Positions 11,386 through 30,586 of a stretch of 64,000 nt of DNA are shown piece by piece. Numbering within the stretch: the stretch's first letter is position 1; the number at the start of each line of letters is the position of its first letter. Below the pieces are notes generated by a model that worked only from the letters and a program-made list of their open reading frames with translations, was not told the DNA's origin and did no database searches. The translations under genes and the position numbers were made by a program. Origin of the DNA: Pediococcus acidilactici (GTDB lineage: Bacteria > Bacillota > Bacilli > Lactobacillales > Lactobacillaceae); NCBI GenBank assembly GCA_024970065.1, contig CP103908.1, positions 1,054,001 to 1,118,000 of the forward strand, in the 5' to 3' direction.

Positions 11386-12645
11386 CTACTCTCCATGTTT
11401 TCCAATGTCATTCCGATAACGCATCCCCACTAACTTCTGTTGATTTAACCACGAATATAAAATTGTTCGCGCTTGCGTAATATTACTAGCTTTGGTCGTT
11501 GCACAGAGGATCCGGCCACCGTCGCTAACCAATTCGCCCTTCAAATCTTGTGCCACGCCAGCATAGTTGACGGTAAGGTCTGCTGGAACGCTATTAAAGC
11601 TGGATAAACTAATCCCTGCAGCCGAAGATTGTGGGTAATTTTCTGAACTCACAACCACCCCTAAATAAATATCGTTATTTTGCCATTTCACTTGGGGCGG
11701 TTGCTGATCCAGTAACCCCAGAATAAGCTCGTAGAAATCACTTTGCAGCTGTGGTAATACAACTTCCGTTTCGGGATCTCCAAAGCGGACGTTGAATTCA
11801 ATTACCTTGGGCCCAGTTTTAGTCATAATCAAACCGGCATACAAAACCCCACAAAAAATAATATCCCGTTGACGTAAAGCATGAATGATTGGACGGACAA
11901 CCTCATCCACACACCGTTTCCCCAGCTCTGTTGGAAATTGAGGTAACGGGCTATATGCGCCCATTCCACCCGTATTAGGCCCACGGTCGCCATCGTAAGC
12001 TGCCTTATGATCCTGGGAAAGCGGCATTGGGATAATTTGGTCGCCGTTAACAAATGCCATTAGCGAGAATTCTTGTCCTTCCAAGTATTCCTCGATAACG
12101 ATCGACGTGGTATTAAATTGGTGCTCACCTAGCAATTGATGAATTATTGCTACGGCATCACTTTGATTTTTAGCAATCGTAACCCCCTTCCCGGCGGCTA
12201 ATCCGTCAGCTTTAATTACCACCGGATAAGAGACCTTGGATAACGCCTGGATTGCAGAGCTTTCGTCTTGAAAGCTGGCGTAGCGCGCGGTTGGCACTCC
12301 CGCCTCCTGCATAACCTTTTTGGCAAATTGCTTCGAACTCTCTAATTTTGCTGCCGCTTGAGTCGGACCAAAAATGGCTAACCCTGCCGCATTGAAATAA
12401 TCAACAATTCCCTGTTGCAGCGGCAATTCCGGACCGACAACCGTTAGACTAACCGCTTGCTTGCGGGCAAACTCAACCAACTTTTCAAAGTTTAATTCCT
12501 TGATGGGAACGGTCTTAATTCCGCTGCGCAACATCCCGGGATTTCCGGGCGCGCAATAAACTTCTTCAACCCGCTCACTTAACAATAACTGGCGGCCAAT
12601 TGCGTGTTCGCGGGCGCCTTGCCCAATAACTAGTACTTTTACCAC
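11386..12645 (-). CDS. purD: Phosphoribosylamine-glycine ligase
   Basis: PurD (419 residues) makes glycinamide ribonucleotide from phosphoribosylamine, glycine and ATP, the second step of purine synthesis. It has an ATP-grasp fold. The N-terminus VLVIGQGAREHAIGRQL and GNPGM are the PurD signature. The ATP-binding region carries VIKADGLAAGKGV near 150, and the HKAAYDGDRGPNTGGMGAYSP segment near 215-235 is diagnostic. EFNVRFGDPETEV near 290 holds the metal ligands. It is the last gene of the operon, 12 bases after purH, with the terminator following. Confidence 0.96.
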   Translation of the reverse strand: MVKVLVIGQGAREHAIGRQLLLSERVEEVYCAPGNPGMLRSGIKTVPIKELNFEKLVEFARKQAVSLTVVGPELPLQQGIVDYFNAAGLAIFGPTQAAAKLESSKQFAKKVMQEAGVPTARYASFQDESSAIQALSKVSYPVVIKADGLAAGKGVTIAKNQSDAVAIIHQLLGEHQFNTTSIVIEEYLEGQEFSLMAFVNGDQIIPMPLSQDHKAAYDGDRGPNTGGMGAYSPLPQFPTELGKRCVDEVVRPIIHALRQRDIIFCGVLYAGLIMTKTGPKVIEFNVRFGDPETEVVLPQLQSDFYELILGLLDQQPPQVKWQNNDIYLGVVVSSENYPQSSAAGISLSSFNSVPADLTVNYAGVAQDLKGELVSDGGRILCATTKASNITQARTILYSWLNQQKLVGMRYRNDIGKHGE

Positions 12646-12657
12646 AAATTAAGCCCC

Positions 12658-14193
12658 CTAATGTCTAAAATGACGCCGACCGCTAAAGACTAGCGTGATG
12701 CCTAACTCGTTTGCCTTGTCAATCGACGCTTGATCTTTAATGCTACCACCAGGTTCGACGATGGCCTTAATCCCGTGTTTAGCTGCAAACTCGACGCAAT
12801 CATCCATTGGGAAAAAGGCGTCGGACGCCATAATTGCATTTTTAAATCCAGCAGCCTTTTCTGCCTGTTCAATAGCAATTTCAACCGAGCCAATCCGATT
12901 CATTTGGCCTGCGCCGATTCCTAAAGTCTGATTTTCCGTAGCAATCACGATTGCATTGCTCTTAACGTGTTTAACCACCGTTTGGCCGAAAACCATGGCT
13001 CTTAGTTCGGCCTCTGTCGGTTGGCGCTTAGAAACCACCTTAAAATCAGCCTGGCTTTCAGCGACTTCATCAGGTTCTTGTACTAAAAGCCCGCCCATTA
13101 CGGAGACTGTTTCGAGTTCCTTAGACGCTTGTTCTTTACTAAAATCAACCGTCATTATTCGTAGATTTTTCTTCTGCGCCAACACTGCAAAAGCTTCCCT
13201 TTCAAAACTAGGAGCAATTATAATTTCCAAAAAGAGCTGGTGCATTTTCTGGGCAGTCGCCAAATCAACTGGACGATTTAATACAATAATCCCGCCGAAA
13301 ATAGAAATTGGGTCAGCAGCGTACGCCCGATCCCACGCTTCCTCAATCGACTTGCCTAGCCCAATTCCGCAAGGATTCATGTGCTTAACGGCAATCACCG
13401 CAGGCTGTTCAAACTCGGCACTCATTTTCAAAGCCGCGTCAGCATCTCTAATATTGTTATACGAAAGTTCCTTTCCATGTAATTGCTTAGCTTGGGCAAT
13501 CGAAAACGGCACGGGTAAGGCATTCTCGTAGAAAGCGGCGTTCTGGTGACTATTTTCACCGTAGCGCATTGCTTGTTTCTTGGTATAGGTCAGCGTGAGT
13601 TGGGTAGGAAATTTTTCATCCGCACGTCCCAGATATTGGGCAATTAGCGTGTCGTACGCGGCCGTATGCTGGAAAACTTTCAAAGCTAGCGCCCGCCGAA
13701 AAGCAATTGCATCGTCCGGTTGCGCCAGCTGGTCTAAAACTGCTTGATAATCTGCAGGATCCGCCACCGCCCAAACCGACGCAAAATTTTTAGCCGCGGA
13801 ACGCAACATGCTGGGTCCGCCAATGTCAATTTGTTCAATTGCTTCTGCTTCAGTGATTCCGTCTTGCATAATGGTGCTTTTGAATGGGTAGAGGTTCACA
13901 CAGACTAAGTCAATCAGACCAATTTGCTGTTCTTTTAACGCTTGCAAGTGGTTCGGTAAATCGCGTCGAGCTAATAGTCCACCATGAATTACGGGATGTA
14001 ACGTCTTTACCCGACCATCCAGCATTTCTGGAAAACCGGTTAATTCTTCTACTCCTGTCACCGTTAGCCCCGCTTCTTCAAGAACCTTCTTAGTCCCGCC
14101 AGTAGAGACTATTCTATATTCTTGAGCCGCTAAGCCCTTGGCAAATTCAACAATTCCAGTTTTATCCGACACGCTTAATAATGCAGTTTTCAT
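12658..14193 (-). CDS. purH: Bifunctional AICAR transformylase / IMP cyclohydrolase
   Basis: PurH (about 511 residues) carries out the last two steps to IMP. The N-terminal cyclohydrolase domain begins [18 protein letters not shown] and contains [14 protein letters not shown] and [19 protein letters not shown]. The C-terminal transformylase domain has [17 protein letters not shown] and the catalytic KHMNPCGIG (Lys-His pair), and ends near SGRRHFRH. I place the start at the ATG at 14193, 7 bases after GGGAG, rather than the GTG two codons earlier, which lies too close to that site. It is 12 bases from purN. Confidence 0.96.
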
Positions 14194-14205: not shown

Positions 14206-14787
14206 TTATTTAATCAATTTTCGTTGTTTTAGAACTTCGCATAGGCTAACAAAATATAATTCATGCTCGACTTGATGAATTCTTTGCGCTAATTTTGTCA
14301 CATCATCATTGGGCAAAATGGGGACCGCCCGCTGCGCAATGATGGGGCCGGTATCAATTCCGTCGTCAATCCAGTGCACGGTGACCCCGGTAATTTTCAC
14401 GCCGTACGCAAAAGCGTCTTCAATTCCATGTCGTCCCGGAAAGGCAGGCAACAACGCAGGGTGAATATTAATAATGGCCTGTGGGTAGGCTTCTAGTAGC
14501 ACTCCCGTAATAATTTTCATGTAACCGGCTAATACAATTAGTTTTAAATCGTATTTTTGCAACTCGAGCAGAATTGCTTGTTCGTAAGCCGTTTTGTCAG
14601 CAAACTCGCCCAAACGGTGGGTCCAAACTGGAACCCCCAATTTGACCGCTTTTCCAACTACTGGTGCATCTGGTTGATCACAAACTAAACATGCAATGCG
14701 AATTGGTACGTTAGTTTCTTCGATGTGGCGGGCAAGTGCAACAAAATTGGTGCCGGTCCCCGACGCAAATATTGCGATCTTAATCAT
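14206..14787 (-). CDS. purN: Phosphoribosylglycinamide formyltransferase 1
   Basis: PurN (193 residues) transfers the formyl group of 10-formyl-THF to glycinamide ribonucleotide. IAIFASGTGTNF is the phosphoribosyl-binding start, and LAGYMKIITGVLLEAYPQAIINIHPALLPAFPG carries the folate-site Asn and His (INIHPALLP). The later GVTVHWIDDGIDTGPIIAQ segment contains the catalytic Asp. The start codon overlaps the purM stop by one base (TAATG), so it is translationally coupled to the frameshifted purM. Confidence 0.95.
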   Translation of the reverse strand: MIKIAIFASGTGTNFVALARHIEETNVPIRIACLVCDQPDAPVVGKAVKLGVPVWTHRLGEFADKTAYEQAILLELQKYDLKLIVLAGYMKIITGVLLEAYPQAIINIHPALLPAFPGRHGIEDAFAYGVKITGVTVHWIDDGIDTGPIIAQRAVPILPNDDVTKLAQRIHQVEHELYFVSLCEVLKQRKLIK

Positions 14788-15832
14788 TAATCAGCTCCTA
14801 AAAGTACGACGGCTGGTGCATTTTCTGGGCGCCTCTTCACTTGACCAATCTTAAAATACGGTTCTTTTTGGCGGTCGAGTTCGTCCCTTACTTGCTGATA
14901 TTGCTGAGGACTCACGGTCAACACCATTCCAATTCCCATATTGAAAGTTTGGTAACGGTCGGTTTGTGAAAGTTTTCCAAGCTTAGTGAGAACGTTAAAA
15001 ATAGCTGGTTTAGGCCAACTAGCCAACTTTATTTCAGCCTGTTGATTGGGTTGTAACATCCGCGGTACGTTTTCCAGTAAACCACCACCCGTAATGTGGG
15101 CAATCCCGTTTAATAACCTTTTTTGTAACAGTGGTCGGATCACGTTACCATATAACCGGGTCGGTTCCAAAAGTTCTTCGATTAATGGACGGGCGATTCC
15201 TGGCAAATAGTCGTCAAATTGGTAATGATGATCCGTAAAAAGGATTTTACGCACTAATGAGTAACCGTTACTATGTAAGCCAGTCGAAGGTAAACCAATC
15301 AAGTAATCTCCTTCACTTACCATGGCTGAACTGAGGAGCTCTCTTTTAGCTGCCAAACCAACCGCAAAACCGGCTAAATCAAAACGCTGGTCTTGATAAA
15401 GCCCCGGCATCTCGGCCGTTTCTCCGCCTAGTAACGGGATGGATTGGGCCTGGCAAGCTTTCAAAATCCCTTTTAAAATTGCGGCTGTTTGGTCGCTTTC
15501 TAAACGTGAAAACGCCAAATAATCTAAAAAGAATAGCGGTAATGCGCCCTGCGCCAACAAATCGTTAACGCACATTGCTACCAAATCTTGCCCTAACGAT
15601 TCGACTTTTCCAGTTTGGGCAGCTAACAGTACTTTAGTTCCCACTCCGTCAGCCCCCGCCACTAAAACCGGATCGTCTAATTGATCTTCGGAGAGTTGGT
15701 AACATCCGGCAAAATTGCCAATCCCATTTAGAATGTGGGGTCTTGTTCACCAACCGCTTGCCTTAAACCTTCAATAATTTCTTCGCCCGCTGCAATGTTT
15801 ACTCCCGCTTGTTCATAAGCATTTTTGGTCAT
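14787..15832 (-). pseudogene. purM: Phosphoribosylformylglycinamidine cyclo-ligase, frameshifted
   Basis: PurM closes the imidazole ring (FGAM to AIR). From the ATG at 15832 the first 34 codons read [20 protein letters not shown]...GEQDPTF and then meet TAA (15728-15730). The family continues one frame away as PHILNGIGNFAGCYQL, then VAGADGVGTKVLL and the rest to the stop at 14787. The shift falls at or near GACCCCAC on the minus strand (CCCC at 15737-15740); one more C would restore a full protein of about 348 residues. The downstream part (GGETAEMPG, STGLHSNGYSLVRK, ITGGGLLENVPRM) is intact with no other lesion. A start at the GTG at 15662 would drop about 57 conserved residues and is not credible. 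The cause may be a real mutation, a sequencing error, or slippage on the C run. Confidence 0.8.
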
Positions 15833-17304
15833 TAGTATTTCTCCTTTGCGGCTCCCGTTGCCGATAACGTAGTGTCTTTAACGGTTTTAGGAACTTCAAA
15901 ACCGGCCGCGTAATCGTAAAGCGGTGTAGGATATTTTCCATCAAAGTACGCTACGCAAAGTCCGTCGTTAGGGGCATCTTGGTGTAAACCGATGGCTTCA
16001 ATCAAACCGGGCAAGCTCAAAAAGTGCAACGAGTCCGCCCCGATTGCAACGCACATTTCCTTTACCGTAAGGTTTGCCGCCATTAATTCACGTGTATGTT
16101 CGATATCAATTCCGTAAAAGCAAGGGTATTTCAACGGTGGTGAACTGATCATCAAACGCACCGCTTTAGCCCCCGCTTTTTTCAACATTTTTACAATGTA
16201 CTTGCTGGTGGTCCCCCGAACAAGCGAGTCGTCAACGAGAGCCACCCTTTTTCCAGCAACCACCGCGGATAACACTGTCAACTTCATCTCGACCCCCTGT
16301 TCACGTAACTTAGGGGTGGGTTGAATAAACGTGCGGCTACTGTACTGATTTTTAATCAGACCCATTTCATTTGGGACTCCTAACTGCTCTGCCACCCCTG
16401 CCGCTGCTGATAGCGAAGAATTGGGTACCCCAACGACAATGTCCACGTCTAACGGATTTTCTTGGGCTAATCGCTTACCCATTCGTTGTCGCGCGCGATG
16501 GACGTTCACCCCGTAAAGGTTCGAATCTGGACGGGCGAAATAAATAAATTCCATCGAACAAATTGCTAGCTGAGTCTCGGTCGTAAAGTGGCTAATTTTA
16601 ATTCCCTGGTCATCAATTTGGACCAGTTCGCCAGGTTCTACGTCCCGGACAACTTTGGCACCCACCGCCATTAACGCGCAAGTTTCACTAGCGATCACGA
16701 ATGCACCATTAGTTAATTGCCCAATCACCAAAGGCCGGAAACCATTAGGATCCAATGCTGCGTATAAAGCATTTTCCGTAAGAATCAGGTACGCGAACCC
16801 ACCCTTAATTTGTCGCAAACTAGCCTTTAATTTTTCCCTAAAGCTTGCCTGCTTTTGGTGCTGAATCAGGTGCATTAGAACTTCGGTATCCGAATTGGAT
16901 TGAAAAATTGCGCCCTGCTCTTCTAATTGGTGGCGTAGCGTAATTGCATTTGTCAAATTACCGTTATGGGCCATCGCCACGTCCCCTTGTAGGTAGTGGA
17001 AAAGCAGCGGCTGCACATTTTCAACCCCGCGGCTTCCAGCCGTACCGTAACGGACGTGGCCAATTGCACTGCGCCCAATTAAGTTCGTTAAGTCATCCGG
17101 GTTATTGAACACGTCCGCTAAAAGCCCCAGCCCTTTGTGGATGGCAAACTTTCCCGTGGGAGTGCGGGTTACGATGCCCGCCCCCTCTTGCCCGCGATGC
17201 TGTAAGCTGTGTAATCCGATATACGTTCGTTGCGCTGCATCTGGATCTTGCCAAACCCCAAAAATGCCGCATTCTTCGTTGAGTCCCTTTAATTCAGTTG
17301 CCAT
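15832..17304 (-). CDS. purF: Amidophosphoribosyltransferase
   Basis: PurF (about 490 residues) transfers the glutamine amide to PRPP, the committed step of purine synthesis and its main feedback point. With the ATG at 17304 (AAGGAAG seven bases upstream) an 11-residue propeptide [11 protein letters not shown] precedes Cys12. That Cys is expected to become the N-terminal nucleophile of the class II glutaminase domain (CGIFGVW). [11 protein letters not shown] and AHNGNLTNA belong to the same domain. The PRPP loop is [18 protein letters not shown]. It overlaps the purL end by 16 bases, and its stop overlaps the purM start. Confidence 0.95.
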
Positions 17305-19493
17305 GCGAGTGCTTCCTTCCAACTAGTTTCGGCCGCCGTTAAATCAACGTTCAACATGTCATCGGTGGTTAAGATTTTAAGCCGATCACCCCCTACATGG
17401 CCGAGTAGCACCGCCTTGCCAGCAGTTTTAGCTTCAAAAAGTGCTTGATTTGCTGGCGTAACGGTTACGAGAAACCGCGATTGGTTTTCAGCAAAGAGTT
17501 CGGCGGCCGTTAAGTCAGTTTGCACGTTAAACCCGATTTTTCCTGCGAAGGCACTTTCTGCGAGGGCGATCGCTAATCCCCCTTCTGCCAAATCGTGTGC
17601 ACTAGCCAAAAGTCCTTCATGAATTAGGTCGCTTACTAAGCGTTGTTGGTCAATTTCGTATTGCAAATCAAAGTCGAACAGTTTACCTTCCACGTGGCCT
17701 AATTGCATTTTTTGGAGCTCACTGCCGTTAAAGGCGTCCGTAGTTTCACCTAGAATGTAAATCAAATCACCCGTTTGTTTAAAATCTAAGGTGGTTATCC
17801 AAGCTGGATCTTCAATTATTCCGACCATGCCCACCATGGGCGTAGGGTAAATTGGTTGCCGATTAAATTCGTTGTACAGTGAAACGTTGCCCGAAATCAC
17901 GGGAGTATCAAAAACATCGCAGGCCACGGTCATTCCATTAATGGCCTGGGCTAATTCGTAGTAACTTTCCGGATCCTCTGGACTCCCAAAATTCAGGCAA
18001 TCGGTAATTGCTAAAGGCTTTCCTCCCGTTACCACCACGTTGCGGGCGGCTTCGCTAACGGCAATTTGTCCGCCAAGGTAAGGATTCAAGTATAAGTAAC
18101 GGGGATTCGCGTCGGTAGTCATTGCGAGTGCTTTTTTGGTCCCGCGGATTCGAACTACTGCAGCGTCGCTTTGGACGGTTGAAATTGTGTTAGTTTGTAC
18201 CTGTGCATCGTAGCGTTCAAAGATTGCTACTTTATTAGCAATCGTGGCTTGACGCAACATAGCGTTAAAAGTTGCCGTCAAATCCTTAACTTGCGGTTGG
18301 AATTGCTTTCCAGCGCTCTTAACACGTTGCGGTTTTTGACTTGGTCGATGATAAGTTGGTGCTTCATCAACTAACGCATGAATTGGCACATCGGCTACGA
18401 TGGCCCCTTTAAAAATCAGCTGATATCGCTGATCTTCGGTGACCTCCCCGATTTTTACAGCGGTACTGTCATATTTTGCAAAAATTTCCTCTACTTCACG
18501 TTCGTGCCCCTGCTTAACGCATAGCAACATCCGTTCTTGGGATTCAGAAAGCATTAATTCGTAGGGAATCATGTCTGCTTCACGTTGAGGAACCAAGTCA
18601 AGGTTCAAGCGCATTCCAAACCCCGCCTTGGCACCCATTTCTGCTGATGAGGAAACTAAGCCCGCCGCCCCCATATCTTGAATCCCTACCAACCATTCGG
18701 CATGGTTATGAATTAATTCTAAGCAAGCTTCCATTAGCTGTTTTTCTGCAAACGGATCCCCAACCTGGACCGCCGACCGTTGTGTAGCGTGTGCATCATT
18801 AAACTCAGTAGAAGCAAAAATAGCACCTTGAATCCCATCTCGGCCTGTTTTAGCGCCCACATAATAGATTGAATTGCCGACCCCGGCGGCAGCTCCCCGC
18901 TGTTGGTCAGCGACGTTCAACAAGCCCACGCACATGGCGTTCATCACCGGGTTATTCTGGTAAATTGCATCAAAAGTCGTTTCTCCACCAACCGTGGGAA
19001 TCCCCATGCAATTACCGTAGTCGCCAATTCCCGCTACGGCTTGGTCCACTAAGTATTTTGTCCGGGCGTCAGTCAATTCACCAAAATGCAGACTGTCCAT
19101 TAACGCGATTGGTCGGGCACCCATGGAAAAAATGTCTCGTACAATGCCACCCACGCCGGTTGCCGCACCTTGATAAGGCTCCACTGCTGTAGGATGATTA
19201 TGACTTTCAGCTTTAAAAACTACCGCTTGCCCGTCGCCAATATCGACAATGCCAGCACCTTCTCCCGGTCCCTGTAATATCTGCTGACCCGTTGTGGGAA
19301 ATTGTTTTAAAAGTGGCTTAGAGTTTTTATACGCACAATGCTCGCTCCACATGGCAGCAAATAATCCTGTTTCAGTGAAGTTAGGGAGTCGACCCAAAGT
19401 GTTCCTGATCTGGTTAAATTCGTCTTTGCTTAGTCCCCACTGGACATATAATTTTTGATCCCGAATTTCGGTCGGTGTTAATTCCGTCATCAT
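17289..19493 (-). CDS. purL: Phosphoribosylformylglycinamidine synthase, large subunit (small-PurL type)
   Basis: This is the 734-residue short form of PurL, which needs PurS and PurQ to make FGAM from FGAR, glutamine and ATP. Diagnostic segments are [19 protein letters not shown] near 45, [25 protein letters not shown] near 90, [14 protein letters not shown] ([18 protein letters not shown]) near 270, and [19 protein letters not shown] and [10 protein letters not shown] in the second half. The neighbouring purS and purQ genes confirm the three-subunit enzyme. A GGGGAG site precedes the ATG pair, and the first or second Met could be used. Confidence 0.95.
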
Positions 19494-19510: not shown

Positions 19511-20185
19511 TTAAACGTGCTGCGTGATACTAGCAACTAAACTTTGGAACAATATTTTTCCATCGGCCCCGCCTAAAACTGCTTCACTAGCTCGTTCCGG
19601 ATGGGGCATCAGCCCAAGGACGTTGCCCCCTTGGTTAGTAATTCCGGCAATGTTATCAGTACTGCCGTTAGGGTTGTTTACGTAGCGCAGAACAATTTGG
19701 TTGTGTTCCTTTAAATCTTGTAAAGTTGTTTCATCGCAATAATAGTTTCCTTCACCGTGAGCAATAGGGAACGTTACGGTTTGCTTTAAACTAAATTGGC
19801 GGGTAAACGGCGTTTGGCAATTTTCAACAACCAATTTCTGGGGTCGGCAAATAAAATTCAAGCTCTCGTTAGGCCGCAATGCTCCGGGTAATAACCCGGC
19901 TTCGGTTAAAATTTGAAATCCGTTGCAGACTCCGATCACTGGATTTCCAGCCTCCGCAAATTCCTGCACCGCGGACATGATGGGCGAAAAACGGGCAATT
20001 GCGCCGCTTCGCAGGTAGTCACCGTACGAAAAGCCACCCGGAATTAAGACGGCGACGGTTTCAGCTGGTAAAGCAGTCTCGCGATAATCCACAAAACGTG
20101 GGGTGACCTTAAGGACGTCTCGTAAAACGTAATACATATCCCAGTCACAATTAGAGCCCGGAAAACGAAGGATGCTATATATCAT
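19511..20185 (-). CDS. purQ: Phosphoribosylformylglycinamidine synthase, glutaminase subunit
   Basis: PurQ (224 residues) is the class I glutamine amidotransferase that supplies ammonia to PurL. The catalytic Cys lies in [17 protein letters not shown], the His/Glu pair in [10 protein letters not shown], and the oxyanion region in [16 protein letters not shown]. It overlaps purS by four bases (ATGA), a sign of translational coupling, and is 17 bases upstream of purL. Confidence 0.95.
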
Positions 20186-20442
20186 TTTTCGTCCTCCTGA
20201 ACGTCTTGAATCTCAAAACGGTAAGTTTCCATGTTAACGTTGGCTAATAATTCATCACACATTTTTTGGATTTGTTCGTTAACGTTTTGTCCGCCATCGA
20301 CCACCTGGATTTCGAAATATTTTCCAACCGTCACTTTTTGGACCTCTTGGTAATTCAAATGATGAAGTGCTTTTTTAATGGCGGCTCCTTGAGGATCCAA
20401 AATAGATTCTTTATAAGTGACGTAAACTTTAGCTTTGTACAT
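20182..20442 (-). CDS. purS: Phosphoribosylformylglycinamidine synthase, PurS subunit
   Basis: PurS is the small structural subunit that bridges PurQ and PurL. The 86 residues fit the family: [25 protein letters not shown] at the start, GKYFEIQ in the middle, and an acidic tail ([11 protein letters not shown]). It overlaps purC by 14 bases and purQ by 4 bases, so all three are translated from one message. Confidence 0.94.
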
Positions 20443-21163
20443 GCGCTTCCTCCCGTGAATTTATTAAACGCCGGAGCACCTCTTGATAAACCGTCACCAG
20501 ATCGCCCGTTTTTTTGCGGAAAACATCCTTATCTAAGGAAGTCTTAGTGGTTAGGTCTACCAAACGGCAAGAATCAGGTGAAATTTCGTCCGCAAGAATA
20601 ATTTTTCCATCTGCGGTTTTGCCAAATTCAACCTTGAAGTCCACCAGTTGCAAACAAGCTTGCCGAAACCGTTCCTTTAACAACCGATTAATTTGGAGCG
20701 CTAATCTTTCAAGGACTTCACCTTCTGCGTAACTAATAATTTTCAGAGCAACGGCTTGATTAGTGTTGATGAATGGATCATCCAATTCGTCGGATTTATA
20801 AAAAAATTCCACAAGCGGTTGGTCGAACTCTTGTAAATACGGCACCGCAAATTTTCGTTGAAAACTGCCCGCTGCTGCATTACGTACGACTACCTCTAGT
20901 GGAATAACGTCTACTTTATAATTTAATTGTTCGTTATCGGAAATTTTTTTAATAAAGTCCGTATGAATCCCTTTTGCATCCAGCATTTTAAAAAGGATGC
21001 AATCGATCTGATTGTTCAAAGCTCCCTTACCAATAACTTGGTCCTTTCGTTTACCATTTAACGCCGTTGCCTGATCCAGGTACTCAACCCACACCACGTT
21101 CGCCTCATCCGTACTATACAATCGTTTAGCTTTACCCTCTTTAATTAACGTCGTTTTCTTCAT
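20429..21163 (-). CDS. purC: Phosphoribosylaminoimidazole-succinocarboxamide synthase (SAICAR synthase)
   Basis: PurC (244 residues) joins aspartate to CAIR using ATP. Visible signatures are [15 protein letters not shown] (ATP loop) at the N-terminus, EVVVRNAAAGSFQRKFAV, and VDFKVEFGKTADGKIILADEISPDSCRL, the last containing the conserved acidic metal site. It overlaps purK by 23 bases upstream and purS by 14 bases downstream. Confidence 0.95.
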   Translation of the reverse strand: MKKTTLIKEGKAKRLYSTDEANVVWVEYLDQATALNGKRKDQVIGKGALNNQIDCILFKMLDAKGIHTDFIKKISDNEQLNYKVDVIPLEVVVRNAAAGSFQRKFAVPYLQEFDQPLVEFFYKSDELDDPFINTNQAVALKIISYAEGEVLERLALQINRLLKERFRQACLQLVDFKVEFGKTADGKIILADEISPDSCRLVDLTTKTSLDKDVFRKKTGDLVTVYQEVLRRLINSREEAHVQS

Positions 21164-22301
21164 TGCTAATCTCCCAAATCTTTTCCGCTTGAATTGAATC
21201 TAAGCTTGGTTGCAGTTCGCCTAACAAAGTAATGTGCCCCATCTTCCGGTTTACCCGACCTTCCGCTTTGCCGTAATCGTGAAAATGCCAATGCGGCCGT
21301 TGTGCTAGCCTTTTGCGGGCTAATGTTAAATGTTGTCCGAGTAAATTGACCATCACTGCGGGGACGGGTTGCGTAATTTTCGGTATTTCAAGTCCACAGA
21401 TACTGCGAACGTGGGCTTCAAATTGTGAAATGTTACAGGCTTCAATCGAGTAATGTCCCGAATTATGGGGACGAGGTGCTAATTCATTCACTAACAAACG
21501 ATCATCAGCTAACAAGAAGAATTCAATCCCCAATACTCCTCGTAAACATAAACCTTGCGCAATTTGGCGAGCAATTTTTTGTGCTTTTTGCTGAACCTCT
21601 TTTGTTACCCGCGCCGGGACAACGCTTTGATGGAGAATATGGTTGTGATGGATATTTTCCGCTACTGGAAAACATCGCACCTGGCCATCCCGACTTCGCG
21701 TCACCATTACCGATAATTCTTTGCTGAATTTCTGACGCTTTTCCAAAATGCACGGTGTTTGGGATACTAAACTCCGGCCCGCTGGCAAATCGGCCTCCGA
21801 ATTAATATCTTGCTGACCATGTCCGTCATAACCGCCCTCACAAGATTTTAAAATGCAAGGGTATCCTAGCTTAGTAATCGCGTCATTTAGCTCAGTAGGA
21901 TTGCTGACGGGTAGATAAGGCGTTGTCGGGAGGTCGTGGCTAGTAAGAAAATGTTTTTCACGAAGACGATCACTAGTTACGTATAGTAAATTAGTTCCTT
22001 GTGGAAGAGCCGCTAACTTTTGTGCAGCCTCTAAGCTAGTTAAATCGACATTTTCAAATTCATAAGTTAAAACGTCGCTACGTTCGGCCATCTTTAATAG
22101 CGCTTGCTGGTCGTTATAAGCGGCCACGATTTGAAAATCACTAACCTGACCAGCCGGACAGTTAGGGGTCGGATCTAAAATGCCCACCTTATATCCCATT
22201 GCCTTGGCAGCCAGAGCGATCATCTGGCCTAATTGGCCGCCGCCAATAATTCCAATCGTTGCTGGCGGTAGGTATATACCCGCTTCACCACTGCTTTTCA
22301 C
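21141..22301 (-). CDS. purK: 5-(carboxyamino)imidazole ribonucleotide synthase
   Basis: PurK carboxylates AIR with bicarbonate and ATP and works with PurE. It is an ATP-grasp enzyme: [23 protein letters not shown] binds [18 protein letters not shown] is the ATP-grasp lid, and [31 protein letters not shown] carries the metal ligands. I place the start at GTG 22301 (VKSSGEAGI), 9 bases after GGAGG, giving about 386 residues. A longer reading frame upstream has no family match. The start overlaps the end of purE by 17 bases. Confidence 0.92.
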
Positions 22302-22767
22302 TATTTTGGGCCTCCTGTGTTTGTTCTTGACGAAATTCAACCATTTTATTAGCAAGCCGCGGTTCGGCAACCGCTAAAATTTCGATTGCCAGTAAAGCTG
22401 CATTTTTAGCCCCGGCCTCTCCAATTGCCGTGGTTGCTACCGGCTCCCCGCTGGGCATCTGCACAATCGACAATAAAGAGTCCAAACCGTGCAACGCATG
22501 ACTTTCAATCGGGACGCCCACCACCGGTAAAATGGTGTTGGCCGCTAACATTCCTGGTAAATGCGCAGCTCCACCAGCTCCTGCAATTATTACCCCATAA
22601 CCATCTTTTTGAGCTTGCTCACCAAATTTTTGAAGTTCACTAGGCATCCGATGCGCTGATATTACGTGTCGCTCATAAGCCACCCCGAACTTATCAAGCA
22701 TCGCTGCCGTTTCCTTCATCGTGGGCCAATCGGAAATTGATCCCATCACTACCGCAATTTTTTTCAT
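22285..22767 (-). CDS. purE: N5-carboxyaminoimidazole ribonucleotide mutase
   Basis: PurE class I (about 160 residues) moves the carboxyl group to make [28 protein letters not shown] and VISAHRMP hold the nucleotide-binding residues and catalytic His, and [19 protein letters not shown] and [17 protein letters not shown] follow. The ATG at 22767 has GGAG five to six bases upstream. It is the first gene of the operon. Confidence 0.95.
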
Positions 22768-22811
22768 AACAGCTCCTTTCAAATGCAAAACCAAGGTTAG
22801 TTTTCACGTTT

Positions 22812-25587: not shown

Positions 25588-26217
25588 CTAATTCAAAAAA
25601 TCACTAAGTGCAGTTCTTAAATGTTGGATTGCTTGCTTAATGTCTGGTGCCTTCATGATTGCCGAAACTACTGCAACTCCGTCGACATTCGTATTCCGCA
25701 AAACGGACAGGTTTTCCGCATTTAACCCGCCAATTGCAAAAACCGTTATTTTCGCTTCCTGCTTAATTTGTTTTAGCGTTGCAACACTGGTGTGGACGGT
25801 TTTAACGTGGGTCGTAGTGGGAAAAATTGCTCCCACTCCCAAGTAGTTAGCCCCCTCTTCAACCGCGCGCCGTGCTTGCGCAACAGTTTTAGTAGTCGCT
25901 CCAATAATTTTATCGGGCCCTAAAATTCGCCGTGCTACCGCCACTGGTAAATCAGCTTGTCCAAGATGAACACCCGCAGCATCAACAGCTTGCGCAATCG
26001 CCACCTGGTCATCGATTATTAACGGAACTTGGTAACGGTCGGTAATCTTTTTTACATGACTCGCCAATTTATAGTATTCACCACTGCTAATTTCTTTTTC
26101 CCGTAGCTGGAGTAAATCAACTCCTCCCTGGCAAGCCAACTCAATCCTTTCTAAAAATTGTTGTTGGTCTAATTCTAGCCGGCCCGTAACGAGGTAAAGT
26201 AACGGCTTTTCCAACAT
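25588..26217 (-). CDS. thiE: Thiamine-phosphate synthase
   Basis: ThiE (about 209 residues, TIM barrel) joins the pyrimidine (HMP-PP) and thiazole (HET-P) halves to thiamine phosphate. LYLVTGRLELDQQQFLERIELA, the basic-loop segment DLLQLREKEI, LIIDDQVAIAQAVDAAGVHLGQADLPV (phosphate and Mg site), GATTKT and VGAIFPTTTH (loop that closes the active site), and AIGGLNAENL are all present. I choose the ATG at 26217, five bases after GGGGTGG, over the GTG nine bases upstream. It is divergent from thiSFG and shares a short control region with it, but has no TPP riboswitch of its own. Confidence 0.94.
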   Translation of the reverse strand: MLEKPLLYLVTGRLELDQQQFLERIELACQGGVDLLQLREKEISSGEYYKLASHVKKITDRYQVPLIIDDQVAIAQAVDAAGVHLGQADLPVAVARRILGPDKIIGATTKTVAQARRAVEEGANYLGVGAIFPTTTHVKTVHTSVATLKQIKQEAKITVFAIGGLNAENLSVLRNTNVDGVAVVSAIMKAPDIKQAIQHLRTALSDFLN

Positions 26218-26238
26218 TTTATCCACCCCAATTTAATT

Positions 26239-26267
26239 TTGACTTTCTTTATGATAGCGTTTACAAT
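26239..26267 (+). promoter_or_regulatory. Promoter of the thiSFG operon
   Basis: TTGACT (26239-26244) and TACAAT (26262-26267) are separated by exactly 17 bases on the plus strand. A candidate thiE promoter (TTACCA-N16-TATCAT) overlaps it on the other strand (26251-26278). Confidence 0.7.
26252..26265. promoter_or_regulatory. cre site (CcpA) in the thiE/thiS control region
   Basis: Read on the minus strand TGTAAACGCTATCA fits the cre consensus TGNAANCGNWNNCA at every position. It overlaps the -10 of the plus-strand promoter and that of the likely thiE promoter, so CcpA could repress both directions. Confidence 0.65.
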
Positions 26268-26271
26268 ATAC

Positions 26272-26290
26272 GTGGTAATAATTTTACCAC
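26272..26290. promoter_or_regulatory. Perfect inverted repeat, operator candidate
   Basis: GTGGTAA-TAATT-TTACCAC lies five bases downstream of the plus-strand -10 element and ahead of the riboswitch. Location and symmetry fit a repressor operator; no thiamine regulator gene is adjacent. Confidence 0.45.
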
Positions 26291-26311
26291 ATAAATCAAA
26301 ACTTTAAAGTT

Positions 26312-26385
26312 CGTCTGGGGTGCCATTTTTGGCTGAGATCATACCCATTGAACCTGATGTAGTTCGTACTACCGAAGGAAGACCG
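26312..26385 (+). promoter_or_regulatory. TPP riboswitch aptamer
   Basis: The conserved THI-box core is present in order: GGGGTGCC, GGCTGAGATCATACCC, ATTGAACCTGAT, then a TAGTTCGTACTA hairpin arm and CGAAGGAAG. GTCT and AGAC at the ends can form P1. It controls the plus-strand thiS-thiF-thiG-M20-DAACS operon by sensing thiamine pyrophosphate. Confidence 0.92.
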
Positions 26386-26447
26386 AATACCGCAATAGCA
26401 TAATTCTGTAACTCACTTTTGGTGAATTACGCCACCCATAATTGCGT

Positions 26448-26488
26448 ACCCCTTTCTTTGGTTGTATCCATAAGAAAGGGGGTTTTTG
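26448..26488 (+). terminator. Riboswitch-controlled terminator that also masks the thiS ribosome site
   Basis: ACCCCTTTCTT pairs with AAGAAAGGGGGT around a 13-base loop and is followed by TTTTTG. The GGGGG of the right arm is also the thiS ribosome site (seven bases before the ATG), so the hairpin can stop both transcription and translation. A separate small hairpin (GTAACTCAC/GTGAATTAC, 26408-26430) lies between aptamer and terminator. Confidence 0.8.
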
Positions 26489-26489
26489 T

Positions 26490-26687
26490 ATGGCAATCGT
26501 TAACGGCACAGAAAATTTACAAGCTAATAAGCAAAATTTACTCGTCTTTTTAAAAGACAATTACACGAAAACTGACAATCTGGCGGTTGAACTAAACGGC
26601 GAAATAATTGCCAATCAGCAATTAAGTACCGTTACCATTCAACCGACGGACCATTTGGAAATAATTGCTTTTGTGGGAGGAGGTTAA
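26490..26687 (+). CDS. thiS: Sulfur carrier protein ThiS
   Basis: This 65-residue ubiquitin-like carrier is thiocarboxylated at its C-terminus and hands sulfur to ThiG for thiazole formation. It begins MAIVNGTENLQANKQNLL and ends FVGGG, with the Gly-Gly end required for adenylation by ThiF. The start at 26490 follows AGGGGG. A longer frame from 26442 would run through the terminator hairpin and is not real. The next gene starts right after the stop (TAAATG). Confidence 0.93.
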   Translation: MAIVNGTENLQANKQNLLVFLKDNYTKTDNLAVELNGEIIANQQLSTVTIQPTDHLEIIAFVGGG

Positions 26688-27350
26688 ATGAGAAAAGCAA
26701 CGGAACCAGAACTTCAACTTTATGGTCATTCAATTCACAGCCTACAAGCTCAAATGACCAGTCGAAACGTTATCCACGCTACCCAACCACTCACCGATGC
26801 ACACGTCGCCATTGCAGGTGCAGGAGGGTTGGGCTCAAACATTGCAATTGCTTTAGCACGAATTGGAATTGGGCACTTAACTTTAATTGATTTTGATCAA
26901 GTAGAATTGAGTAACTTGAATCGTCAACAGTATAAATTGAACCAGGTCGGAATGGCAAAAGTGATGGCTCTCAAGCAAAACATTGAAGAGTTTAATCCCT
27001 TCATCTCCCTGACTGCCCTGCAAGTAAGGGTTAACGCGGCTAATATAACGGATTTGTTTACCAATGCTGACGTAATCTGTGAGGCGTTTGATGATCCCGC
27101 CGCCAAAGCACTGCTTTTACGGGAATGTAGCCGTTTATTTCCTCAAAAGCCGCTGGTAATGGCTAGCGGGATGGCGGGAATTCATCCGGCTAACCAAATT
27201 AAGACTAAGCAACTTAACCAACATGTTTATATCGTTGGCGATGGCGTTTCAACCGGTCAGGAAGGACTAATGGCTCCTCGTGTAATGGTTGCGGCTGGGC
27301 ACCAAGCTAACCAAATTGTTCGATTAATTGTAGGTAATTCATCCGATTAA
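26688..27350 (+). CDS. thiF: ThiS adenylyltransferase ThiF (family 2)
   Basis: ThiF (220 residues) activates the ThiS C-terminus by adenylation. VAIAGAGGLGSNIAIALARIGIGHLTLIDFDQVELSNLNRQQY near 45-87 is the Rossmann ATP site with the conserved Asp and Arg. SGMAGIHPANQI follows, and the end is VAAGHQANQIVRLI. The short length and lack of a C-terminal rhodanese domain or obvious CxxC zinc site place it in the family 2 group common in Bacillota. It is tightly packed between thiS (no gap) and thiG (21 bases). Confidence 0.9.
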   Translation: MRKATEPELQLYGHSIHSLQAQMTSRNVIHATQPLTDAHVAIAGAGGLGSNIAIALARIGIGHLTLIDFDQVELSNLNRQQYKLNQVGMAKVMALKQNIEEFNPFISLTALQVRVNAANITDLFTNADVICEAFDDPAAKALLLRECSRLFPQKPLVMASGMAGIHPANQIKTKQLNQHVYIVGDGVSTGQEGLMAPRVMVAAGHQANQIVRLIVGNSSD

Positions 27351-27371
27351 ACCAAGAAAGGAACTAAGCAA

Positions 27372-28145
27372 ATGACATCTAATAATGATTGCTTAACCAT
27401 TAAAGGCCATCAATTTAATTCTCGCTTTATTTTAGGCTCTGGAAAATACGACTACAACTTGATTAAGGCGGCCGTAAAGAACGCCCACGCGGAAATTATT
27501 ACCATGGCCCTTCGCCGAACCACTAATGCAACGGAAGACATTCTCAATTACTTGCCTGATCAAGTTACAATTTTGCCTAACACTTCGGGTTCAACCAATG
27601 CCGAAGAAGCTGTTCGAATTGCCCATATAGCTCGTGAACTTAGTGGCAGTGATTTTATCAAACTGGAAGTAATTCCAGACAGAAAGTACTTACTACCCGA
27701 CAACCAAGAAACGGTTAAAGCCACTCGGATACTTGCACAGGAAGGCTTTATTGTCTTACCATACATGCTTCCTGACTTAAACACCGCAAAACAACTGGTG
27801 GATGCGGGAGCGGCCACCGTCATGCCGCTAGCTTCCCCGATTGGTTCAAATTTAGGATTAGCCAATAAAAATTTAATCCAAATTTTAATCGATGAAATCG
27901 AACTCCCCATCATTGTGGACGCGGGCATTGGTAGTCCTAGCCAAGCAGCAGAAGCAATGGAAATGGGCGCGGATGCGGTAATGGCTAACACCGCCATCGC
28001 TACTGCTGATAACATTCCCCTAATGGCAGAAGCATTTCGGATAGGAATCGAAGCCGGTCGGAAAGCCTACTTAGCAGGTTTAGGTCGGGTAGTTAACCAT
28101 AAAGCCGTGGCTTCTTCCCCACTGCAAGGAATTAGTAAGCAATGA
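27372..28145 (+). CDS. thiG: Thiazole synthase
   Basis: ThiG (257 residues, TIM barrel) builds the thiazole phosphate from deoxyxylulose 5-phosphate, dehydroglycine and ThiS thiocarboxylate. The Schiff-base Lys is K97 in FIKLEVIPD. Other signatures are [36 protein letters not shown] (phosphate loop), [31 protein letters not shown] and [13 protein letters not shown]. Neither ThiO nor ThiH, which supply dehydroglycine, is encoded in this window. The stop overlaps the next start by four bases (ATGA). Confidence 0.94.
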
Positions 28146-29362
28146 CCATCATCCCTGATTTAAATGACCAATTGCAATTAATCGCCCACGCTTCACCCAC
28201 TTTTCCTAAGCAAAATCGGTTAGTCTATAGTCCAGCATGGACAACCGCCCAGCAACAGCTCATCCAATGGGCTCTAGCAGGCGGATTAACCGTCAGTGTT
28301 GATGACTATGGTAACGTCTATGCTGATTTAGTCGGAAAAGACGACGCAAAGGTAGTGGCGACGGGTTCGCACATTGACACGGTCAAAGACGGGGGGATTT
28401 TTGATGGGCTATACGGTGTTTTAGCCGGAATAAATGCCTTGATCAAGCTTAAACAACGCTATGGACAACCCCAGCTTTCTTTACGTGCAATTTCATTTAG
28501 CGAAGAGGAAGGTAGTCGCTTTCCCACCACTTTTAGCGGCTCAAGGTACTATGTCCAAAAGGCCCGCTTAAATAATTTGGTCGATGCTAACGGCATTGAT
28601 TTTAACGAGGCACGGCAAAATGCTGTTCAAAGTTTGCTAGCATTACCGCAAGTTAACCATCAACAACCTGCCCTTCCAGCCACCTTCACCGAATTGCACA
28701 TCGAGCAAGGTCCCGTTTTAGAAGCCACTCACCGTCAAATCGGATTAGTTAACCGGATTGTAGGCCAACGGCGGTTGCTATTCACATTAATTGGACAGGC
28801 TAACCACGCGGGAACTACCCCTCCCAAATTTCGGCACGATGCTTTTCAAGCTGCCCTTGAGTTAATTAACCAGTTTAACCAATTTGCCACTAAATTCGAC
28901 CCGGACTTTCGCTTTACGATCGGCCACTTCGTAACCTTTCCTAACGTTGCCAACGTAATTCCTGGAGAAGTGCAGTTCAGCGTAGATTTCCGCCATCCCA
29001 ACGAAGAACACTTAAAATACTTTGACCAGCTTCTTCATAAGGCGGCCGCCCAGCGAATAGATGCCGAAATTAAACTAAAAATTGATTACGCATCGAAATC
29101 CAAACCCGTTAAATTAGCTTCCAATTTACTGCGCTTAAACCAAACCATTGCCCACCATTTAAACTATTCCACGATGATTCTATCTTCTGGAGCGGGACAT
29201 GATAGCCAAATCATGGGTTCATCTGTACCAACGGCCATGATTTTCGTCCCCAGTAAAGCCGGCATTAGTCACACTTTTACCGAATGTACTGACCAAGCTG
29301 ATCTCGAAGCTGGGTTTCATGTACTAACCGAGAGTTTATATCAGCAAGCGTATTTAAATTAA
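28142..29362 (+). CDS. M20 family Zn-dependent amidohydrolase (N-carbamoyl-amino-acid hydrolase/allantoate amidohydrolase type)
   Basis: The 406-residue protein belongs to the hydantoinase/carbamoylase branch of the M20 metallo-hydrolases. Metal and catalytic residues are intact: His in TGSHIDTV, Asp in [10 protein letters not shown], the Glu pair in [10 protein letters not shown], His in ELHIEQGP, and His in [11 protein letters not shown] dimerisation lid domain (about 210-325, with [10 protein letters not shown]) is present. The family cuts N-carbamoyl or similar amide bonds. The gene overlaps thiG by four bases, so it is under the TPP riboswitch. A role in freeing an N-acyl, N-formyl or N-carbamoyl thiamine-related compound is my inference; amino-acid carbamoylase is the default. 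Confidence 0.8.
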
Positions 29363-29380
29363 TTAAAAGGCGGTGGTCGT

Positions 29381-30586
29381 TTGGCACAACGTTTACTGAC
29401 TCGAAAATTTGCTCCGTCATTCACCTTGTTAATCTTTATGGGTACACTAGTGGGGAGCCTTTTGGGGTTAAGTTTTGGTCGCCAACTATCCTTCTTGAAT
29501 ATTGGTGGTGAGCTTTTCTTAAATCTCCTCCAAATGACGATTGTTCCCTTAGTCTTCTGCAGCGTGGTTAACGCACTTGGTCACCTTGATGCCGCTAATC
29601 TTAAAAAAGTCGGTGCAAAAATATTATTTTGGTTCTCGACGACCACCTTCTTTGCCGGGATAATCGGAATCGGACTAGGTTTCTTGATGCATGCCAAATT
29701 GCCTGCGGATAGTTCCCCACCCGCAGTTCAGGCTACTTTGTCCGTAAATTGGCAAAAAACTCTACTTAATTTAGTTCCGCAAAATATTTTTAACGCCTTT
29801 GCCCAAGGAAACGTTAGCCAGATTATTATTTTTGCAATTTTTCTGGGTACCCTGCTAAGCTATAGCAATCGCCAGCACCATTATGACCAATTGCTTACCT
29901 TGGTTACCCAACTAAATGATTTAATTATCCAATTGATAACCTTAATTATGCGGATTGCCCCATTAGGAATTGCTTGTTTGATGGTCAAAACTACTGCCAC
30001 TCACGGAATCACTCTACTATTACCGCTACTTTACTTTTTGTTTTTATACGGGAGCGGTGTCGTTGTATTTTTAGTATTCTTAACGTTACTCACCATTTGG
30101 CGCACGCAAATCCCGCTTGTTAAATTGTTCAAGGGGCTCAACCGCATACTGCTCGTGGCGTTTACCACTACTTCTTCAGCAGTTACCCTTCCGGTTGAGT
30201 TAATGGATGTTCAGCACCGGCTTGGCGTCAGTAAATCAGTCAGCGAATTAGTTTTGCCGTTAGGGATGGTCTTAAATAGTAATGGTCTAGCAATGTATCT
30301 TGCTTTAGTTTGCACCGCCATTGCTCAAATCTACCACCTTCCCCTCACTACCCCTAAATTAGTCGAATTTATTCTTTTGGCAGTTCTCCTATGCGTGGGA
30401 ACGATCACGGCACCCGGCGGCGGAATCATGGCACTGACCATTGCGGTAACCACCCTCCATTTGCCAGCGGAAAGTATCGCACTATTTGCTAGCATAGACT
30501 GGTTTGTAGGCATGTTTCGCACCGTAGCCAACGTAATTGGGGACGTAACTACAGCAGTAATCATTGATCATGAAGAAGCTGGTTGA
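29381..30586 (+). CDS. DAACS-family secondary transporter with altered substrate-site residues
   Basis: This 401-residue membrane protein belongs to the dicarboxylate/amino acid:cation symporter family (GltPh fold), with about eight helices and two hairpins. The start is TTG 29381 after AAAGGCGGTGG. HP1 has FTTTSSAVTLPV. The TM7 motif normally NMDGT reads NSNGL, HP2 has TAPGGGIM, and TM8 reads DWFVGMFRTVANVIGD. Aligned by hand to GltPh, R397, N401 and D405 are kept, D394 (binds the substrate amino group) is Gly, T314 is Leu and D312 (Na site) is Asn. The substrate is therefore probably not a plain amino acid. It follows the M20 gene by 18 bases in the thi operon. Confidence 0.8.
   Translation: MAQRLLTRKFAPSFTLLIFMGTLVGSLLGLSFGRQLSFLNIGGELFLNLLQMTIVPLVFCSVVNALGHLDAANLKKVGAKILFWFSTTTFFAGIIGIGLGFLMHAKLPADSSPPAVQATLSVNWQKTLLNLVPQNIFNAFAQGNVSQIIIFAIFLGTLLSYSNRQHHYDQLLTLVTQLNDLIIQLITLIMRIAPLGIACLMVKTTATHGITLLLPLLYFLFLYGSGVVVFLVFLTLLTIWRTQIPLVKLFKGLNRILLVAFTTTSSAVTLPVELMDVQHRLGVSKSVSELVLPLGMVLNSNGLAMYLALVCTAIAQIYHLPLTTPKLVEFILLAVLLCVGTITAPGGGIMALTIAVTTLHLPAESIALFASIDWFVGMFRTVANVIGDVTTAVIIDHEEAG

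Follow-up and report, generated by a model that had tools for sequence, protein, structure and literature searches.

Does the purine operon of this Pediococcus acidilactici strain still encode a working AIR synthetase, and if it does not, has the purM gene been lost recently, wrongly assembled or split into two frames that the ribosome can join? We analysed these possibilities in a 64,000-nucleotide stretch of contig CP103908.1 (positions 1,054,001 to 1,118,000), which is called the window below and to which all coordinates refer.

The purM reading frame

On the minus strand, purM opens with an ATG at 15832-15830 and ends after 34 codons with a TAA at 15730-15728, while the family sequence PHILNGIGNFAG lies in the next frame over from the start frame. 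From 15740 this second frame contains no stop before its end at 14787, and it scores 347.3 bits with the NCBIfam purM profile TIGR00878 (cut-off 236.35), matching profile positions 33-331 of 332. At the break the two frames overlap in the sequence GAC CCC ACA TTC TAA. Thus, the single frame from start to stop that characterizes PurM is interrupted by the TAA after 34 codons, with the remainder in the other frame. The parts of the gene are the following:

15728..15832, minus strand: 5' piece of purM, ATG, 34 codons, TAA; matched by residues 1-38 of the PurM of G004 (the nearest compared genome, see below)
15737..15740, minus strand: run of four C, the site of the frame break; five C in G004
14787..15740, minus strand: remainder of purM in the neighbouring frame, with no stop before its end, over the TIGR00878 cut-off

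A preliminary description of this DNA had proposed a one-base frameshift in purM within an operon whose other genes are open, with the four C at 15737-15740 as the break point and a clean remainder of PurM. All of its positions were verified, and the profile score of the remainder and the fifth C in G004 agree with it. We consider it quite probable that purM was recently inactivated by a one-base deletion at this short C run, near codon 35.

The rest of the purine operon

The ten other genes of the operon are open frames, as is purB, which is located outside the operon and is over its family cut-off. All ten lie on the minus strand:

22285..22770, minus strand: purE, open, putative start, over the TIGR01162 cut-off
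21141..22259, minus strand: purK, open, putative start, over the NF004675 cut-off
20429..21163, minus strand: purC, open, over the TIGR00081 cut-off
20182..20442, minus strand: purS, open, 86 codons, located between purC and purQ and assigned by its position and sequence
19511..20185, minus strand: purQ, open, over the NF002957 cut-off
17289..19493, minus strand: purL, open, over the NF002290 cut-off
15832..17304, minus strand: purF, open, over the TIGR01134 cut-off
14206..14787, minus strand: purN, open, its ATG sharing one base with the purM stop, over the TIGR00639 cut-off
12658..14178, minus strand: purH, open, over the NF002049 cut-off
11386..12645, minus strand: purD, open, over the TIGR00877 cut-off

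The shared base gives the sequence TAATG at 14787-14789. Because of this overlap, the early stop in purM may lower the expression of purN through lost translational coupling. A scan for PurBox-like motifs gave five matches where 4.87 were expected by chance, and thus no signal.

Comparison with related genomes

The comparison set contained one genome per species. The nearest genome in it, G004, belongs to the same genus and shares 94.6% identity across 13 kb of the operon; its purM is one full frame of 348 residues. The alignment of these 13 kb has gaps at four places, and only the one in purM falls within a listed gene. The remaining three (22985, 23481 and 23515) are situated beyond purE and within no ORF of at least 50 codons of the strain studied here. 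A substitution adjoins the purM gap (GAC here, GGC in G004), so that we can only infer which base was lost. The Asp codon before the break is shared with six of the seven relatives checked, G004 being the exception, and a single deletion would therefore suffice as the simplest account.

Used as a query, the PurM of G004 gave two matches in different frames in the genome studied here (query residues 29-348 and 1-38) and one unbroken match in each of the four other purM-bearing genomes of the genus. Altogether, 35 of the 60 genomes searched, including the present one, contained a PurM match. Measured from stop to stop, the PurM frame of this strain comprises 319 codons, compared with 342-380 in the 34 others. 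An inactivating change in a gene whose orthologue in a close relative is intact, as in G004, is what is expected of a recent pseudogene. With four intact congeneric genes, the lesion is known from one assembly only. The preliminary description had reasoned that intact frames in all related strains, with this assembly alone differing, would mark the break as a sequencing error. This pattern is indeed seen in the four genomes of the genus with purM, at a resolution of one genome per species.

Sequencing error or recent loss

If the C run had been miscounted, the purM gene of the strain would be intact. Such an error would be in line with the intact genes of the relatives and with the location of the break, since base runs are the typical place of such mistakes. 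It would also fit the downstream frame, which appears fully constrained: between the genome studied here and G004, the post-break frame has a pN/pS of 0.10, and the ten neighbouring pur genes have values of 0.08-0.20 (0.18 for the short 5' piece, a value based on two and three changes only). In comparison with its neighbours, the post-break frame thus gives no sign of relaxed evolution, which means that the break is recent, that the frame is still used, or that the break is an error.

Several observations argue against a miscount. With four bases, the run is short. When 98 base runs of at least five bases in G004 were compared, 75 were identical, 22 differed by substitutions only, and a single one, the run in purM, was gapped; the lack of length gaps in other runs suggests that the assembly is not generally error-prone in this region. 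Further, of 74 ORFs of at least 80 codons in G004, 53 matched the window, 42 of them unbroken and 11 flagged. Apart from purM, six of the flagged ORFs lie opposite unflagged ones, two overlap each other at a symporter gene whose G004 version is shorter, one is extended at its start in G004, and one is truncated by the window edge. Among the 53, purM alone is split into two frames on its own strand. Finally, full-length PurM of the close group is absent among the protein matches listed, while a control search with PurF finds this group (see below). We therefore regard an assembly or sequencing error as unlikely, and the break as most likely biological.

Recoding

Programmed -1 ribosomal frameshifting makes use of overlapping frames around a short one-base run, and the preliminary description had pointed to a possible slip on the proline codon that would fuse both purM frames. 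After slipping by -1, the CCC codon can indeed pair with CCC again, and the downstream frame is constrained. However, in the context C CCC ACA the second codon is unable to re-pair, and thus the break lacks a slippery heptamer in which both codons do so. The 96 nt downstream have a predicted folding energy of -21.8 kcal/mol, compared with an average of -24.19 for shuffled versions (z 0.75), of which 156 of 200 are as stable or more; this test covered one 96-nt stretch and structures other than pseudoknots, and in it the stretch does not stand out as a stable structure. Moreover, the break was found in no relative examined, neither in the four congeneric genomes with purM nor in the search that gave 34 other genomes with PurM. 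The proposed recoding is thus hardly credible.

Internal starts

We also considered whether translation could begin downstream of the break and yield a shortened PurM that keeps some activity. In the second frame, the earliest start codon is GTG 15662, which would leave 291 residues. The PDB chains 9vnv and 9vnw begin near the same place, so a folded PurM of this length is conceivable. On the other hand, judged by eye, the starts that would keep most of the protein are not preceded by a good ribosome-binding site. Only TTG 15302, which would leave 171 residues, has a clear AGGAG-type site before it, and ATG 15410 (207 residues left) is preceded by a distant GGAG. An active product of an internal start therefore seems very unlikely, and judging from the sequence, probably no active PurM is made from the broken gene.

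Expected purine need and salvage

Recent inactivation by deletion, the reading we prefer, would have clear consequences for metabolism. With the frame broken at the C run, ribosomes would stop after 34 codons, and no full-length AIR synthetase would be made. De novo purine synthesis would then halt at FGAM, and the cell would rely on purine uptake and salvage. The genome is a single contig of 1,995,187 bases (completeness 99.97%), and a profile search with E values up to 10 revealed no second PurM in it. The domain PF00586 has three matches, two in PurL and one in the broken PurM, and their number is unchanged at E values up to 10.

In the absence of PurM, FGAM is not converted to AIR, and hence IMP must come via salvage. 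The genome encodes HGPRT, APT and PurR, the repressor of the pur operon, each of them over its cut-off, and it also harbours seven permeases of the PF00860 (NCS2) type; one of the three of these that were scanned exceeds the xanthine permease cut-off. The purine need proposed in the preliminary description is thus to be expected, given the frameshift and the fact that no second AIR synthetase was found in the genome, and the strain is probably a purine auxotroph. In the genus, seven of the eleven other genomes gave no match to PurM or PurH, and these were the same seven in both searches. At the level of titles and beginnings of abstracts, the literature searched yielded nothing on P. acidilactici that concerned purM or purine auxotrophy, papers on strain GQ01 and hyperuricaemia aside.

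Thiamine genes in the window

Genes of the thiazole and TMP-synthase families are present at 25588-29362. Genes of the ThiF, ThiG and M20 peptidase families at 26688-29362 are located within a segment (26506-29674) that has no match in the 68-kb stretch of G004, in which the neighbouring symporter gene (29381-30586) is matched only partly. With ThiF, ThiG and TMP-synthase families nearby, we considered that thiamine synthesis might depend on AIR. This was dropped, since the genome contains no match to ThiC (E values up to 0.001) and AIR is therefore probably not needed for thiamine here. As the thiazole and TMP-synthase families are present without ThiC, the cell probably obtains the pyrimidine half of thiamine from its surroundings.

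PurM in the close group of strains

A protein database clustered at 90% identity was searched with two PurM queries, the 291-residue frame (best 120 of 8000 candidates) and the full PurM of G004 (best 30 of 8000); the 8000 scored candidates were those sharing most words with the query. Among the matches listed, neither query gave a full-length PurM above 76% identity. Two shorter entries of above 90% identity were listed. P0007 has 261 residues and nine members and carries the word "partial" in its source name; its N-terminal part reads through the site that is broken here. P0014 is a C-terminal PurM piece of 178 residues with 17 members, listed in the first search only, since it is too short for candidacy in the search with the G004 protein. 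Its sequence agrees at every position with the C-terminal portion of the intact PurM of G004, so that it is by itself no proof of a lesion. The nearest named match among those listed, a partial PurM of Pediococcus acidilactici, covers 70% of the query at 96% identity.

In a control with the strain's own PurF, a full-length cluster of 289 members was found at 96% identity, whose representative is 99% identical to the PurF of G004. The size of this cluster points to good sampling of the close group, with full-length PurM missing among the matches listed. It is tempting to speculate that purM is lost recurrently in the P. acidilactici group as the first broken gene of an otherwise conserved purine operon, and that most strains are purine auxotrophs with different purM lesions. 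In favour of this, pieces only (P0007 and P0014) and no full-length PurM of at least 90% identity are among the matches listed, as opposed to the full-length PurF cluster. However, the purM of G004 is intact, and P0007 and P0014 may be contig ends. We therefore hold recurrent loss to be rather doubtful. Viral contigs, scanned for exact 30-base matches, yielded no further strains.

Significance and comparison with known systems

If the break is real, the first step of the loss of a pathway has been caught, in which one enzyme is gone and the other genes are still open. A purine need would then be predicted for a strain that a count of its gene content could call a prototroph, which would have a bearing on defined media and on the metabolic modelling of pediococci used in food and feed. 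Should purM prove to be broken at different places in many strains, the group would be a good case for studying why the loss of a pathway begins with one particular gene.

Both pieces described here are PurM (TIGR00878) in sequence and are found at the usual place between purF and purN, but they differ from the known family in that no single frame leads from start to stop. With programmed -1 frameshifting, purM of this strain shares overlapping frames around a short one-base run, while the slippery heptamer, the supporting fold and the conservation are missing. The closest parallel is the loss of purine synthesis in lactic acid bacteria. According to an excerpt of PMC13328217, several Lactobacillus species are without de novo purine synthesis, which is seen as an adaptation to rich habitats, and purine synthesis genes are missing in L. 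johnsonii according to an excerpt of PMC2679651. As far as these excerpts go, the absence of synthesis in these species and in seven of the eleven other genomes of the genus resembles the situation described here, which appears to be a recent gene loss of an ordinary, known kind and not a new mechanism. The difference is that in the present strain a single gene is broken by one base, while the remaining pathway is open.
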